DNA of 17,161 bases from Dehalococcoidia bacterium (GTDB lineage: Bacteria > Chloroflexota > Dehalococcoidia > Plut-88900): the NCBI GenBank assembly GCA_012270635.1, contig JAAXHX010000290.1, positions 1-17,161 on the forward strand. Reading direction: 5' to 3'. The notes under the pieces were generated by a model that made no database searches, was not told where the DNA came from, and was given only the letters and a program-made list of their open reading frames with translations. Below are positions 852 through 9,656 of the stretch, piece after piece (position 1 is the stretch's first letter; each line of letters starts with the position of its first letter). The translations under genes and the position numbers were made by a program.

Positions 852-1781
852 ATGAAGGCCTACATACTGCGCAGGATGCTCTGGGTCCCCGTAGTCCTTC
901 TCGTCGTATCCTTCGTCACCTTTGCCCTCGGCCACTATGGCCCCGGGGACCCCGTATCCGTCATTGCGGGACAGCACCGAGACCCCGATGTCATCGCCCG
1001 CATCACGGAGCAGCGCGGCCTGGACGATCCCTTCTTCATCCAGTACGGACGCTACATCTGGAACGCCATCCGGGGAGACCTCGGGGAGAGCTTCACCTTC
1101 CGCGGCGAACCCGTCAGTAGTCTCATCGCCGGCAAGATATGGGTGTCGGCCCAGCTGGGCATCGCTGCGACCATAATCTCGGTGTTCGGAGGCGTGCCCC
1201 TGGGCCTAATCGCCGCCCTAAACCAGGGCCGGTGGATGGACCCCGTCATCGTCGCCACCACGCTGATCTTCGTCTCGGTCCCCGTCCTGGTCACCGCGCC
1301 GCTGCTGGCCCTCGTCTTCGTCGTCTGGCTGGACATATTGCCCAGCGGCGGCTGGGGCGGCTTCTTCGACACCCGCATATTGATGCCCGCCATCGTCATG
1401 GGAGTGCCCGGCATTGCCATAATGACCCGGCTCATGAGGGCCAGCACCCTGGACGTCCTCGGCCAGGACTACATACGCACGGCCCGGGCCAAGGGCCTGC
1501 GGGAATGGACCGTCCGCCGCCGACACATCGCCCGCAACTCCGTCATCCCCATCGTCACCGTCGTCGGCCTCTCCCTGGGCGACCTGGTAACCGGGGCCTT
1601 CATCACCGAAAGGCTGTACGGCATACCGGGCATCGGCAGGCTGGCCGTCGACTCCATATTCAACCGGGACTACCCGGTGATAATGGCCCTCGTCCTGCTC
1701 ATCGCCGTATCCTTCGTGCTCGCCAACCTCCTGGTCGACGTGCTATACGCCTTCCTCGATCCCAGGATCAAGTATGACTAA
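852..1781 (+). CDS. dppB: Peptide/oligopeptide ABC transporter permease, DppB type
   Basis: This is an inner subunit of a binding-protein-dependent importer of the Dpp/Opp/nickel family, which passes peptides or similar solutes across the cytoplasmic membrane. Its 309 residues are the usual length. The N-terminus (MKAYILRRMLWVPVVLLVVSF) is the classic DppB start with the first membrane helix. The first external loop carries the family-type GDPV segment and the GLDDPFFIQYGRY motif. Five more hydrophobic segments follow. The EAA loop that contacts the ATPase is at about residues 200-225 (DYIRTARAKGLREWTVRRRH). The end, FLDPRIKYD, is also typical. The start is supported by CGGAGG five bases upstream. 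The gene overlaps the next permease gene by eight bases, so the two are translationally coupled. No ATPase or solute-binding protein gene is present in the window, so the substrate is unknown. Confidence 0.93.
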   Translation: MKAYILRRMLWVPVVLLVVSFVTFALGHYGPGDPVSVIAGQHRDPDVIARITEQRGLDDPFFIQYGRYIWNAIRGDLGESFTFRGEPVSSLIAGKIWVSAQLGIAATIISVFGGVPLGLIAALNQGRWMDPVIVATTLIFVSVPVLVTAPLLALVFVVWLDILPSGGWGGFFDTRILMPAIVMGVPGIAIMTRLMRASTLDVLGQDYIRTARAKGLREWTVRRRHIARNSVIPIVTVVGLSLGDLVTGAFITERLYGIPGIGRLAVDSIFNRDYPVIMALVLLIAVSFVLANLLVDVLYAFLDPRIKYD

Positions 1782-3825
1782 CCCCCTACACCTGCTCCCC
1801 GGCCTGCGACGCCGCTTCCGCCGGGGCCAAGACTCCGAAACGGTGCCCGATAGCCCCGCCCCCCCGGCCCCGAGGCGCGGGGGTCCCTGGACCCAGGCCT
1901 GGAACCGGCTCCTCCACAAGAAGGTCGCCCTGGGGGCCCTCATCCTCATCATCATCCTCTATGGCGTCGGCATCTTCGCCCCCTGGGCCGCCCCCCGAGA
2001 CTACCGTGAGACCCCGTCCACCGACCTCGAGGAACTGCCCGGCTTTCAGGGGCTGGTCATGTCCTCGAGCTGGGCCGAGAACTCGACCATATACAACTAC
2101 ACCCCTGTTGGGGTGTTCCGCTCGGAAAACGCGGGCGGGTCGTGGGTACAAACCAGCGCGGGGCTCGGGGCGGTAAATGTAGACGTCCTGGTCCCCGTCC
2201 CGAACACCGCACCCGGCGAAGTGATATACGCGGGTACGCCCCAGGGAGTGTTCGTGTCCCGGGACGGGGCCTCCAGCTGGACGTCCGCCAACGTCGGCCT
2301 CCCGGAGAACCGGGCCATCAATCACTTGGCGGTGTCTCCCTCTTTTGAAGTCGATGGGACCGTAATTGCCGCGCTCCCCGGGGGGCTGTTCAGGAGTGGG
2401 GACCGGGGCGCCGGCTGGACCAACGTGAACAACGGGTTCCAGGGCGACTCCCCCGCCGCATCTCACGTCGTCTTCTCCCCCGCCTTCGCCACCGACTCCA
2501 CGGTCTTCGCCACCGTCACCGAACGCAAGACCGGCTCCTTCCGCACCGTCGAGGAGGTCTACCGCTCCACCGACGGCGGGATCAACTGGATGCAGGTCTA
2601 CGAAGGCAGGTCCGGCACCTCCCGGGAATCGACGATGGCCATATCCCCGGACTTCAACCGGGACGGGACCCTGTTCGCATCCACGTCCCAGGGCCTGCTC
2701 CGCTCCCGGGACCGCGGCACGACCTGGTCCGTGATCGACGAAAGCCTCGGCAGCCACCAGGTCCTGGCCCTCCTCATCTCCCCCGACTTCGAGTCCGACA
2801 GCACCATCTTCGCCAACACCGGCAGCCTCGGCATCTTCCGCTCCGTCGATGGGGGTGCGTCGTGGGGGGCGGTCGTTACGGGCCTGAGCATCACCAAGGC
2901 CGAGGGCTTGGCCATCTCTCCCGACTTCGGCAGCGACGCCACCCTCTTCGCCGGCACCCTGGACGGAGGTCTCTTCCTATCCACCAACGGGGGCGACCTG
3001 TGGACCGAGCTAGCCTCCACGGACCTCATCGAAGGGCCGTCCATCTTCAACTGGCCCCCGAGCCTGGAACACCCCCTCGGCACGGACAGGATAGGCCGGG
3101 ACCTGCTGAGCCGGGTTATCTACGGCATCCGCACCACCGTCATCATAACTTTGGCCTCCGTGCTGACGGGTTCGCTGCTCATCGGCGTATTCATGGGCGC
3201 TGCGGCAGGCTACTTCGGACGACGCGTCGACACCGTGATCATGCGCACCGGCGACATATTCCTCGCCTTCCCCGGAATCCTGCTGATCATTCTCATCGCG
3301 GCCACGGTCAAGCCGAGGGTCGTGGAATGGACGAGGGGGTTCGAGGACTGGTCGGGCATCGACGGGATAGTCAGGTCGGGGGCCGTGGACTACTTCGTGG
3401 TCTTCGCCTCCCTGACCCTGTTCAGCTGGGTGGGCATGGCCCGGTTGGTGAGGGGCCAGGTGCTGTGGCTGAAGGAGAGCCAGTACGTGGAGGCGGCCAG
3501 GGCCATGGGCGCCTCCAACCTGCGCATCGTCTTCCGACACCTGCTCCCGAACGCCATCAGCCCGGTCATCGTATCCGTATCGGTGGGGATGGGGGCGGTC
3601 GCGGGCTCGGAGGTGGTGCTCAGCTGGTTCGGCATCGGGATCCAGCCCCCCAACCCGAGCCTCGGGCGCATGATCCTGGAAAACTTCGGCGTCTCCAACC
3701 TCTCCATCCTCCGCGACGACCCCCACCTCCTCCTCGTGCCCGCGGCCACCATTGCCGTCCTCATCTACGCCTGGAACCTCCTCGGCGACGGCCTCAACGA
3801 CGTGCTGAACCCCCGCACCCGGTAG
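1774..3825 (+). CDS. dppC: DppC-type ABC permease with an inserted seven-repeat BNR/Asp-box propeller domain
   Basis: This is the second permease of the importer, but it is 683 residues long where DppC proteins are usually about 300. Residues 51-70 form the first membrane helix. The normal DppC core resumes at 433 (HPLGTDRIGRD), with the remaining helices and an EAA loop at about 571-592 (YVEAARAMGASNLRIVFRHLL). Between them, residues about 85-425 hold seven Asp-box motifs of the form S-x-D/N-x-G-x-x-W: SENAGGSW 117, SRDGASSW 162, SGDRGAGW 208, STDGGINW 265, SRDRGTTW 311, SVDGGASW 357 and STNGGDLW 403. Six repeats are spaced 45-46 residues apart, with one gap of 57, and ISPDF/DSTIFA-type strands lie between them. 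Seven such units fit a seven-bladed beta-propeller of the sialidase/sortilin/HCF136 type. It sits exactly in the first extracytoplasmic loop. A second, shorter insertion lies at about 511-540. The reading frame is open throughout, so this is a true fusion. A role in capturing solute or docking a binding protein is inferred. Confidence 0.92.
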   Translation: MTNPLHLLPGLRRRFRRGQDSETVPDSPAPPAPRRGGPWTQAWNRLLHKKVALGALILIIILYGVGIFAPWAAPRDYRETPSTDLEELPGFQGLVMSSSWAENSTIYNYTPVGVFRSENAGGSWVQTSAGLGAVNVDVLVPVPNTAPGEVIYAGTPQGVFVSRDGASSWTSANVGLPENRAINHLAVSPSFEVDGTVIAALPGGLFRSGDRGAGWTNVNNGFQGDSPAASHVVFSPAFATDSTVFATVTERKTGSFRTVEEVYRSTDGGINWMQVYEGRSGTSRESTMAISPDFNRDGTLFASTSQGLLRSRDRGTTWSVIDESLGSHQVLALLISPDFESDSTIFANTGSLGIFRSVDGGASWGAVVTGLSITKAEGLAISPDFGSDATLFAGTLDGGLFLSTNGGDLWTELASTDLIEGPSIFNWPPSLEHPLGTDRIGRDLLSRVIYGIRTTVIITLASVLTGSLLIGVFMGAAAGYFGRRVDTVIMRTGDIFLAFPGILLIILIAATVKPRVVEWTRGFEDWSGIDGIVRSGAVDYFVVFASLTLFSWVGMARLVRGQVLWLKESQYVEAARAMGASNLRIVFRHLLPNAISPVIVSVSVGMGAVAGSEVVLSWFGIGIQPPNPSLGRMILENFGVSNLSILRDDPHLLLVPAATIAVLIYAWNLLGDGLNDVLNPRTR

Positions 3826-7291: not shown

Positions 7292-7326
7292 AATAATGGG
7301 AACCTGCGGGGCAGGTTCCCATTATT
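7292..7326 (-). terminator. Perfect 16-bp hairpin terminator of the seleno-FTR gene
   Basis: The arms AATAATGGGAACCTGC (7292-7307) and its exact complement (7311-7326) enclose a three-base loop. The hairpin begins 24 bases after the TGA stop of the FTR gene and lies before the M28-like gene, so it separates two transcripts running the same way. Its A/T-rich outer end could act as a partial U-tract. Confidence 0.75.
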
Positions 7327-7350: not shown

Positions 7351-7782
7351 TCACTCCCCCCGGGTCACCGGCCCCCGAGCCGACTTCTTCGGCGCGCCGG
7401 TGTACTTCTCCTCCGGGAACAGCTCCTCGCCCGGCGCGCCTCCCTCGCCGGCAACCGTGCTCATCGGCTCCCCGCCCGCCTCCATCTTGCGAAGAAACTC
7501 TTCGCTCACGAAGAACATTCATATACAGAACCCGTCCCGGGCAATGTCCTCGTGGTGCCTCTCGCAGGGGCAGATCTTCATGCGATCCCGCTCCGGGTCG
7601 CCCTCTACGATCATTCAGGGACAGTAGCGGTAGCCGTATTTCACCTCATTTTTGGCCAGGCCCTTCTGCACCTCGTCGACTATCTCCGGGTCCGAGTAGA
7701 ACTCGTAAGGCCCTTTCTCCACGTACTTCTCGGACATCTTCACCGCGCCCTTCAGGGCCTGCTCGAAGGTCTTCTTCTTCAC
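7351..7782 (-). CDS. Ferredoxin:thioredoxin reductase catalytic subunit homologue, predicted selenoprotein with two Sec (UGA) codons
   Basis: Translating through two TGAs gives 143 residues. The start GTG 7782 has AAAGGAGG seven bases upstream. Residues 28-56 read EFYSDPEIVDEVQKGLAKNE, then KYGYRYCP-TGA; further on come KICPCE (70-74) and DGFCI-TGA-MFFVSEEF (83-96). This is the FeThRed_B family pattern (CPC...CPC...CHC). The six positions map as Cys54, TGA56, Cys71, Cys73, Cys86, TGA88. In Synechocystis FTR the first, third, fourth and fifth Cys bind [4Fe-4S], and the second and sixth form the redox disulfide. Both TGAs (7615-7617 and 7519-7521) fall on the redox pair only. The His of CHC is Ile87. 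Spacings are x14 and x12, versus x16 and x8 in plant-type FTR. Residues 105-143 are a low-complexity tail. The third TGA (7351-7353) lies outside any Cys context and is the stop. Expected role: electron transfer from ferredoxin to thioredoxin-like or other disulfide substrates. No sel genes or FTR variable subunit lie in the window. A pseudogene is the alternative. Confidence 0.88.
7489..7505 (-). promoter_or_regulatory. Candidate bacterial SECIS hairpin for the second UGA (codon 88)
   Basis: In the mRNA, GCGAAGA pairs with UCUUCGC over seven bases around the loop GUU. The loop starts 20 bases after the UGA at 7519-7521. A short stem with a G-U at the start of the apical loop, 16-37 bases downstream of UGA, is what bacterial SelB-binding elements need. 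A competing hairpin (UCUUCG/CGAAGA with a UGAG loop) overlaps it. Confidence 0.6.
7584..7612 (-). promoter_or_regulatory. Candidate bacterial SECIS hairpin for the first UGA (codon 56)
   Basis: The inner stem CCC/GGG (7587-7597) encloses the loop GGAGC, which starts 20 bases after the UGA at 7615-7617, the same distance as for the second UGA. GAUC segments at 7609-7612 and 7584-7587 could pair below it, leaving a large one-sided bulge. The three-bp core is weaker than the second element. Confidence 0.45.
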
Positions 7783-7789
7783 GCTCGGT

Positions 7790-7795
7790 CCTCCT
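7790..7795 (-). promoter_or_regulatory. Ribosome binding site of the seleno-FTR gene
   Basis: The minus strand reads AAAGGAGG then seven bases then GTG (7782-7780). This consensus site fixes the start of a gene that is otherwise easily missed because of its internal TGA codons. Confidence 0.85.
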
Positions 7796-7816
7796 TTGCG
7801 TGCGGCTTATTGTTCA

Positions 7817-7822
7817 ATTATA
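7817..7822 (-). promoter_or_regulatory. Consensus -10 box for the seleno-FTR gene
   Basis: The minus strand carries a perfect TATAAT preceded by GGGG. It would place the transcript start near 7810 and leave a leader of about 28 bases before GTG 7782. No good -35 hexamer is seen at 16-18 bases spacing. Confidence 0.5.
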
Positions 7823-7895: not shown

Positions 7896-8771
7896 ATGAC
7901 CAATTCCAACCTCTCCAACTGGGGCCGCTGGGGCCCCGACGACCAAATAGGCGTCCTCAACCTTCTCCAGGGCCGGGACAAGGTGCTCAAGGCCTTTGGC
8001 ATGATCAAGCAGGGGAAGATATACAGCCTGGCTGTGCCCCTCGAAAAGGACGGGCCCCAGATGCCCACCTTCCACAAGACGTGGCGCGTCTCCCACGTCG
8101 CCGAGCGGAAGGACCCCGACCTCTCCATCATCGACGACGTCATCGTCATGGAGACCCACTCCGGCACCCACATCGACGCCATAGGCCATGTCTGGGCCGA
8201 CGGTCAGTTCTACAACGGCTTCTCCTCCGACGAGTTCGCCAGCAGCCGGGGCGTCGAGCGCACGGGCATCGAGAACGTGCGCCACATCGTCGGAAGGGGC
8301 GTGATGTTGGACGTGGCCGCCTACAAGGGCGTCGACCATCTCCAGGAAGCCGAGCCCATCACCCCGGACGACCTGGACGGAACGGCCCGGGCCCAGGGCA
8401 CCGCCCTGGAACCGGGGGACGTGGTCATGATTCGCACCGGGTGGTACACCCTGTTTGAAAAGGATAGGGCCCGGTGGGCCACATCCTTCCCGGGTCCCGA
8501 CAGCTCGGTCCTCCCCTGGCTCAAGGAGCACGACGTCTGCGCCATCGGCACCGATCACCCCACCTGCGAACTCAGGATCAAGGTCGGCAGCCCCGAGGGC
8601 GGGCTCCCCCTGCACCGCTACGCCCTGCGGGACCTGGGAGTCTACATCCTGGAAAACCTGGACCTGGAGGACCTGGCCCGGGACAGGGTCTACGAGTTCC
8701 TGTTCATCGGGGCGCCCCTTCGGCTGACCCACGCAACGGGCTCCCCCTGGAACCCCCTGGCCATCATCTAA
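7896..8771 (+). CDS. Cyclase-family metal-dependent hydrolase (kynurenine formamidase-like), copy 1
   Basis: A 291-residue member of the cyclase family (PF04199), which includes kynurenine formamidase and isatin hydrolase. These enzymes use a divalent metal to hydrolyse amide, formamide or cyclic amide bonds. The hallmark HxGTHxDxxxH is present as His88-Ser-Gly-Thr-His92-Ile-Asp94-Ala-Ile-Gly-His98. Also present are GRGVMLDV (about 137-144), GDVVMIRTGWY, and TDHPTCE near residue 220. The start is ATG 7896 with GGGAGG five bases upstream. A longer open frame reaching back to 7269 is only antisense to the FTR gene and is rejected. The gene is followed 12 bases later by a close paralogue and then thiD, so the three form one operon. 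The substrate cannot be read from sequence. The family context suggests an N-formyl or lactam compound. Confidence 0.9.
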   Translation: MTNSNLSNWGRWGPDDQIGVLNLLQGRDKVLKAFGMIKQGKIYSLAVPLEKDGPQMPTFHKTWRVSHVAERKDPDLSIIDDVIVMETHSGTHIDAIGHVWADGQFYNGFSSDEFASSRGVERTGIENVRHIVGRGVMLDVAAYKGVDHLQEAEPITPDDLDGTARAQGTALEPGDVVMIRTGWYTLFEKDRARWATSFPGPDSSVLPWLKEHDVCAIGTDHPTCELRIKVGSPEGGLPLHRYALRDLGVYILENLDLEDLARDRVYEFLFIGAPLRLTHATGSPWNPLAII

Positions 8772-8783
8772 CGAGGGACTGCC

Positions 8784-9656
8784 ATGACTACACAGAAGCT
8801 TTCAAACTGGGGCCGCTGGGGCCCCGACGACCAGATAGGCGTCCTCAACATCCTCCAGGACCCGGCCACGGTCCTCGAAGCCGTGAAGCTGGTCAAAAAG
8901 GGGGACATCTACAGCCTCGCCGTGCCCCTGGAGAAGGACGGACCCCAGTTCCCCCTGTTCCACAAGACCTGGCGCGTCTCCCACTGGCAGCGCCTCCACG
9001 GGCCCGAGCTGGACATCATCGACGACATGATCGCCATGGAGACCCACTCCGGCTCCCACATCGACGGCCTGGGCCACTCCTGGCACAACGGCCAGTTCTA
9101 CAACGGCTTCTCTTCCGATGAGTTCGCCAGCAGCCGCGGCGTCGAGCGACTGGGCATCGAAAACGTGCGCCACATCGTGGGGCGGGGCGTCATGCTGGAC
9201 GTGCCGGCTTACAAGGGCGTCGACCACCTACAAGAAGCCGAGCCCGTCAGCGCTGACGACCTGGACAGAGTCGCCGAGGCCCAGGGCATCGGGTTCAGGC
9301 CCGGAGACGTCGTCCTCGTCCGTACCGGCTGGTACACCCTCTTCCACACCGACAGGGAGCGTTGGTCCCGGACCTTCCCCGGCCCCGACGGCTCCGTCCT
9401 GCCCTGGCTAAAGAAGCATGACGTGGTTGCCATAGGGGCAGACCACCCCGCCTGCGAGCGTTACGAAAACTTGGAAGATCCCGTGGAAACGCCCCTGCAC
9501 CGTCACGGTCTGCGGGACCTGGGCGTCTATCTGCTGGAAAACCTGGACTTGGAGGACCTGGCCCGGGACAAGGTCTACGAATTCCTCTTCGTCGGGGCGC
9601 CGCTGCGTATTACCCACGGCACCGGCTCGCCCTGGAACCCCCTGGCCATAGCATGA
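8784..9656 (+). CDS. Cyclase-family metal-dependent hydrolase (kynurenine formamidase-like), copy 2
   Basis: The 290-residue tandem paralogue of the preceding gene is alignable without gaps over the first 100 residues and mostly identical throughout (for example [17 protein letters not shown] in both). The metal motif is His88-Ser-Gly-Ser-His92-Ile-Asp94-Gly-Leu-Gly-His98, with Ser replacing the Thr of copy 1. Divergence is concentrated at residues 24-40, 68-80 and the stretch near 225-235 ([12 protein letters not shown] versus a GSPEGG-containing loop), which may line the substrate pocket. Its TGA stop overlaps the ATG of thiD (ATGA), so the genes are translationally coupled. This is a recent tandem duplication that kept both active sites, so the copies may differ in substrate or form a heteromer. 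Confidence 0.9.

Follow-up and report, generated by a model that had tools for sequence, protein, structure and literature searches.

The best known relatives of the gene described here are the ferredoxin-thioredoxin reductases (FTR), and a form of FTR with two selenocysteines (Sec) has been noticed before. In FTR, Cys87 is the redox residue on the cluster side and Cys57 attacks the disulfide of the substrate; the cluster works in one-electron steps. Electrons pass from ferredoxin to the cluster, then to the disulfide and from there to thioredoxin (PMC6006212). A 2008 survey of the Global Ocean Sampling data included two FTR selenoprotein sequences, one of them with Sec on both redox cysteines (PMC2398784). 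As in our gene, both redox cysteines of that sequence were predicted to be Sec and a bacterial SECIS was predicted. A Sec FTR family is listed in a 2022 review (PMC9312934), and a 2026 review lists it with two Sec and with the model NF041072 (PMC13188914). The guess in an earlier note on this DNA that an FTR with Sec at both positions was undescribed was therefore mistaken. However, the 2008 report has two sequences and, in its accessible part, names no source organism, whereas the present analysis covers 58 Chloroflexota loci, two constrained windows, the Sec machinery and the gene neighbourhood.

The window, i.e., the whole stretch of 17,161 nucleotides that was analysed, has on its minus strand a frame that starts with GTG (7782-7780), runs for 143 codons and ends with a terminal TGA (7353-7351). 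Its only internal stops are TGA at codons 56 (C-P-TGA-M) and 88 (C-I-TGA-M). The earlier description of the locus, a frame open except for these two codons, with a GTG start, a ribosome binding site and a hairpin after the stop, was borne out; the hairpin is the inverted repeat on the last of the following lines.

7817..7822, minus strand: TATAAT, a possible -10 box, read from the sequence only
7790..7797, minus strand: ribosome binding site AAAGGAGG, seven bases 5' of the GTG start
7351..7782, minus strand: catalytic protein of the ferredoxin-thioredoxin/disulfide reductase type, 143 residues long, with Sec predicted at both UGAs (frame, homology, relatives, fold)
7615..7617, minus strand: in-frame UGA codon 56, C-P-U, on the first redox Cys of FTR (alignment)
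7582..7601, minus strand: predicted SECIS hairpin 1, bases 17-36 from the U of UGA 56 (constraint and fold)
7519..7521, minus strand: in-frame UGA codon 88, C-I-U, on the second redox Cys of FTR (alignment)
7489..7505, minus strand: predicted SECIS hairpin 2, bases 17-33 from the U of UGA 88, GCGAAGA-GUU-UCUUCGC (fold, constraint, two compensatory pairs)
7292..7326, minus strand: terminator-like inverted repeat 3' of the stop, two 16-base arms, 7326-7311 and 7307-7292 (sequence)

TGA is the terminal stop of three of the 13 window frames that were checked, the FTR frame included, which agrees with the earlier statement that TGA ends ordinary genes here and that global recoding is unlikely. As to the surroundings, two similar tandem genes (8784-9656 and an upstream frame ending at 8771, plus strand) lie divergent to the FTR gene; by their sequence we take them to be cyclase-like. 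A 683-aa frame at 1774-3825 on the plus strand resembles, by eye, an ABC-transporter permease whose middle is interrupted by a repeat-rich insertion.

The read-through product matches Pfam FeThRed_B with 77.7 bits (E 8e-22; the Pfam cut-off is 22 bits) and the NCBIfam model NF041072, FtrB_double_U, with 214 bits (E 3.6e-64; cut-off 160) over the whole model, positions 1-121. UGA stands at both redox positions, as the name of this model implies, and judging by name and scores the window protein belongs to the 'FtrB family double-selenoprotein' with no essential difference. Both TGAs align with Cys of solved FTR and FDR chains (CPC and CHC/CYC; 4tpu, 7pwe, 1dj7 and others). Cys 54, 71, 73 and 86, which we take to be the ligands of a predicted [4Fe-4S] cluster, are invariant in 29 aligned rows. 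The earlier placement of the TGAs on the FTR redox cysteines, with the four other cysteines kept, thus agrees with the solved chains. An AlphaFold2 model (pLDDT 81.8) matches the FDR 7pwe and 4tpu and the FTR 7bzk, 1dj7 and 2puk; 13 Foldseek matches have E < 0.1 and every one is an FTR or FDR chain.

The best sequence and fold matches are the archaeal and bacterial FDR (4tpu, 7pwe). These have Cys/Cys with CYC, whereas the window protein has U/U with CIU and is not fused to another domain. The FDR of 4tpu is presumably joined to a rubredoxin, as its chain is named rubredoxin; that of 7pwe is joined to a glutaredoxin, according to the title of the structure. The plant and cyanobacterial FTR (1dj7, 2puk, 7bzk) have the catalytic fold and the CPx...CPC...CxX motif in common with the window protein, but they are Cys/Cys with CHC and have a variable subunit, whereas the double-UGA form is U/U. 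The His of their CHC is Ile or Leu in 59 of 59 double-UGA proteins.

A scan of 84,980 genomes, one for each species, with the patterns [VE][ER]DR[KM]KIC and PC[ED]RHHED retrieved 63 relatives; this number counts the relatives that match the patterns and is no measure of absence elsewhere. The 58 Chloroflexota relatives (records named Chloroflexi, Chloroflexota, Dehalococcoidia or SAR202) all have TGA at both codons. The other five, three from Bacillota and two from archaea, have Cys at both. Hence the check at codons 56 and 88 that the earlier note proposed, Cys or TGA, came out as TGA/TGA in all the Chloroflexota relatives retrieved, and what it named as evidence against Sec, random stops in homologues or TAA/TAG at these positions, is absent from a domain that is otherwise stop-free. 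In these 58, the next stop is not reached before matched residue 121, past the FTR domain (locus L047 runs into masked bases); over 64 frames, the window included, it is TAG in 28, TAA in 19, TGA in 16 and unseen in one. The nearest relative, locus L001 from a Chloroflexi draft genome, has 83% identity to the window gene, which makes it likely that the window too comes from a member of the Chloroflexota.

A set of 5.8 billion proteins contains 17 matches to the window protein, and these illustrate a lesson for annotation, as these entries either truncate double-Sec FTRs or put Trp at both sites. In nine of the 17 (P0002-P0010), Trp stands at both TGAs. The frame is broken by standard gene callers in the other eight (P0011-P0018), of which six stop at position 55 and two, P0011 and P0012, carry Cys at position 56 and stop at 88. 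Because P0011 and P0012 combine Cys56 with an end at 88, Sec56 may not be universal, and one-Sec variants of the double-Sec family may exist, to judge from these two sequences.

Synonymous codon use was compared over 59 genes, the reference being the longest frames of each locus, four at most and some of them possibly antisense. Fourteen codon columns exceed z 6, and all of them lie at +4 to +11 after UGA 56, at +5 to +10 after UGA 88 or directly 5' of each UGA; since the sequences are related, z serves as a ranking and the rest of the gene as the control. For example, Leu97 is CTT in 59 of 59 genes versus 9.0 expected, and the codon directly before the UGA is CCU in 41 of 59 (UGA 56) and AUA in 39 of 57 (UGA 88). 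The constraint is as localised around UGA 56 as around UGA 88. At the protein level, the residues 3' of both UGAs are conserved through the rest of the FTR domain. In predicted hairpin 2, compensatory changes (L033, L054) preserve two of the pairs, a result reached by six of 500 shuffles. Hairpin 1 has no covariation beyond shuffles (500 of 500 reach it), so its support comes from constraint and fold, and in some rows it is not the lowest-energy fold of the 45 nt. Folded as single sequences, the two window hairpins are mildly better than shuffles (z -0.83 to -1.84) and neither is outstanding.

The Sec machinery was sampled in 50 relatives' genomes, with eight of the 58 left out. Matches over the cut-off were obtained for SelB in 44, SelA in 43 and SelD in 47 genomes; six, seven and three genomes, respectively, have none. 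In most of these genomes the SelD match itself contains a single in-frame TGA; G006 and G008 carry, in addition, a full-length copy free of TGA. A tRNA-Sec scores over the cut-off in 47 of the 50 genomes and at 62 bits or more in 43, using a model that also matches other long tRNAs and passes its cut-off in five of 14 controls. The genome of the nearest relative (G001) has SelA, SelB and SelD and no tRNA-Sec over the cut-off (best 45.4 versus 47 bits), which is perhaps a gap in the draft. In addition, 393 genomes of the class were drawn, and SelA was counted at E 1e-60 or better. Among the matches listed, SelA accompanies a double-UGA FTR in 23 of 25 genomes and a one-UGA FTR in 52 of 56; it is also present in 36 of 65 genomes whose FTR matches are all stop-free (G093, with its TAG row, is not in these counts, and G157, which has both kinds, is entered as one-UGA). 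Fisher's test gives 1.6e-7 if the genomes are independent, which they are not, and so this value is too small because of their kinship.

We are highly confident that the product of frame 7782-7351(-) is a ferredoxin-type disulfide reductase with two selenocysteines and a member of the known family FtrB_double_U. That both UGAs are Sec, as the earlier note proposed, is well supported by TGA/TGA in 58 of 58 relatives, two RNA-constrained windows with SECIS-like hairpins, the Sec machinery in most of the 50 genomes and a curated double-selenoprotein family, NF041072. The alternative that deserves most attention is that only codon 88 is reliably Sec, with codon 56 read as Sec or Cys according to lineage or selenium supply, so that some cells would have a mixed Cys/Sec FTR. 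The Cys at 56 of P0011 and P0012 and the lack of covariation in hairpin 1 fit this, as does the single UGA of two other FTR families of the class, which occupies the second redox position in all 30 members examined (see below). Against it, TGA is at both positions in the window and all 58 genome loci, and the RNA-level constraint singles out UGA 56 just as sharply as UGA 88; we consider it improbable.

The other explanations have still less in their favour. Read-through at a SECIS competes with termination in bacteria, and hence the UGAs could be a selenium-dependent switch with a short N-terminal peptide as the main product; a peptide function would not need the conservation that continues 3' of both UGAs through the rest of the FTR domain, which makes a switch very unlikely. 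Reassignment of TGA to a sense codon such as Trp (a code 4 or 25 type) would match what the database callers wrote in nine of the 17 protein entries. It is contradicted by the TGA that terminates three of the 13 window frames and 16 of the 64 FTR genes, by the position of both TGAs on redox Cys rather than on Trp, and by the constrained downstream hairpins and the Sec machinery of most relatives, and we give it almost no weight. The same negligible weight goes to a decayed or mis-sequenced gene. Gene callers do break the frame, but the same two codons recur in 58 of 58 separate Chloroflexota assemblies in an otherwise stop-free domain, with the start, the ribosome binding site and the cysteine ligands intact, and this refutes decay.

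The double-Sec form is not the only Sec FTR of the class. Among the matches listed from the 393 genomes, at least 57 weaker FTR matches in 56 genomes have one TGA; 30 of these (L103-L132) were examined, plus 10 stop-free ones. All 30 have the single TGA at the second redox position, and the 10 stop-free matches are all Cys/Cys. The 30 fall into two families, B (23 members, CPC...CHU) and C (7 members, CPC...CYU, with a rubredoxin-like tail that matches Pfam RUBY_RBDX in both members scanned). None of the five one-UGA members tried passes an NCBIfam cut-off. In family B, a hairpin with the tip GGT-CTT is present in 23 of 23 UGA genes versus none of six Cys genes; a T-A pair is exchanged for C-G in four of 23, and the outermost pair fails in four of 22. 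No hairpin common to the members was found in folds of family C. In a tree of 65 rows, which included 18 of the 59 double-UGA genes, the latter form one clade (100/100), B groups with the plant and cyanobacterial FTR and C with the FDR; the inner forks are unsure because the columns are few, the bootstrap is unsettled and long branches meet. From these groupings, it is likely that Sec entered FTR at least three times in the class, always at the second position in the members seen.

The gene neighbourhood also displays a pattern. In 43 of the 59 double-UGA loci, the FTR gene is immediately preceded, on its own strand, by a gene for a protein of about 105 aa (e.g., L043:3641-3955 (+)), with a spacing to the FTR match that ranges from an overlap of 7 bases up to 143 bases before it. 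In 31 aligned members C45, C47, E56, K61, F84, C89 and H92 are invariant (CxC...CxxH), and none of the five members tried has a Pfam or NCBIfam match over the cut-off. The gene is missing beside the FTR in 16 of 59 loci, including the window and its nearest relative L001, and no copy was found elsewhere within the window. Among the matches listed, it was found in 11 of the 393 class genomes, every one of which belongs to the 25 with a double-UGA FTR (5.9e-15 if the genomes are independent); the profile was built from members beside double-UGA FTRs, and scoring in large genomes was confined to 11 first-look candidates. The gene and the FTR are on different contigs in three of the 11 genomes (G001, G002, G026); in G077 they share a contig and are divergent. 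The co-occurrence and the operon-like order suggest that the small protein is a functional partner of the double-Sec FTR.

In each of the 25 relatives' genomes tested, no FTR homologue other than the double-Sec form was found. G074, which has a double-UGA FTR and lies outside this set, contains a further FTR match, and in this it is alone among the 25 double-UGA genomes listed in the class draw. The FTR variable subunit, FeThRed_A, was found in none of the 25 relatives' genomes, and among 14 controls only Synechococcus elongatus matches. Therefore, the double-Sec FTR likely acts without the variable subunit, or with the small CxC...CxxH protein that is encoded beside it in most relatives. A thioredoxin-reductase-like flavoprotein scores above 260 bits in 23 of the 25 genomes, with 11 over the cut-off.

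By analogy with FTR, we would predict the following sequence of events. SelB would decode UGA 56 and UGA 88 as Sec by means of a SECIS hairpin just 3' of each. Reduced ferredoxin, or a similar one-electron donor, would feed the cluster held by the four conserved cysteines, and the cluster would reduce a Sec56-Sec88 diselenide in two one-electron steps. Sec88 would be the cluster-side residue, like Cys87 of FTR, and the attack on the disulfide of a protein, thioredoxin or another, would fall to Sec56, the counterpart of Cys57. At neutral pH a selenol is mostly in its ionised form, and this ionisation would speed the exchange. Such a site might also have the lower redox potential and the altered chemistry that the earlier note proposed.

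A broader reading, which we offer tentatively and consider possible rather than probable, is that a diselenide redox system of two components operates in the Dehalococcoidia/SAR202 bacteria, composed of the double-Sec FTR and a dedicated CxC...CxxH protein that would receive or relay the electrons of the ferredoxin-driven FTR. Sec would then have entered three FTR branches separately, always at the second position and only here at the first as well; its arrival each time at the second position would imply that the contact between the Fe-S cluster and the chalcogen is the site where selenium is selected.

The open-licence literature on SAR202/Dehalococcoidia selenoproteins, Sec FTR and FtrB contains, in the parts available, nothing on the biochemistry, lineage or neighbour gene of the double-Sec FTR. 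The kind of protein was already known; what we did not find in print, within that literature, is the fixation of the double-Sec form across the lineage, the small gene beside it, the likely entry of Sec into several FTR branches of the class, and the double-Sec form as the only FTR homologue of a genome, with no variable subunit (25 of 25 genomes).

In conclusion, an active site in which a [4Fe-4S] cluster faces a diselenide would be unusual, and the neighbour gene is a concrete candidate for the partner of the double-Sec FTR. As FTR has been studied thoroughly as an Fe-S disulfide reductase, the presence of Cys/Cys, Cys/Sec and Sec/Sec FTRs in one bacterial class provides a natural series for asking what selenium buys at each position.
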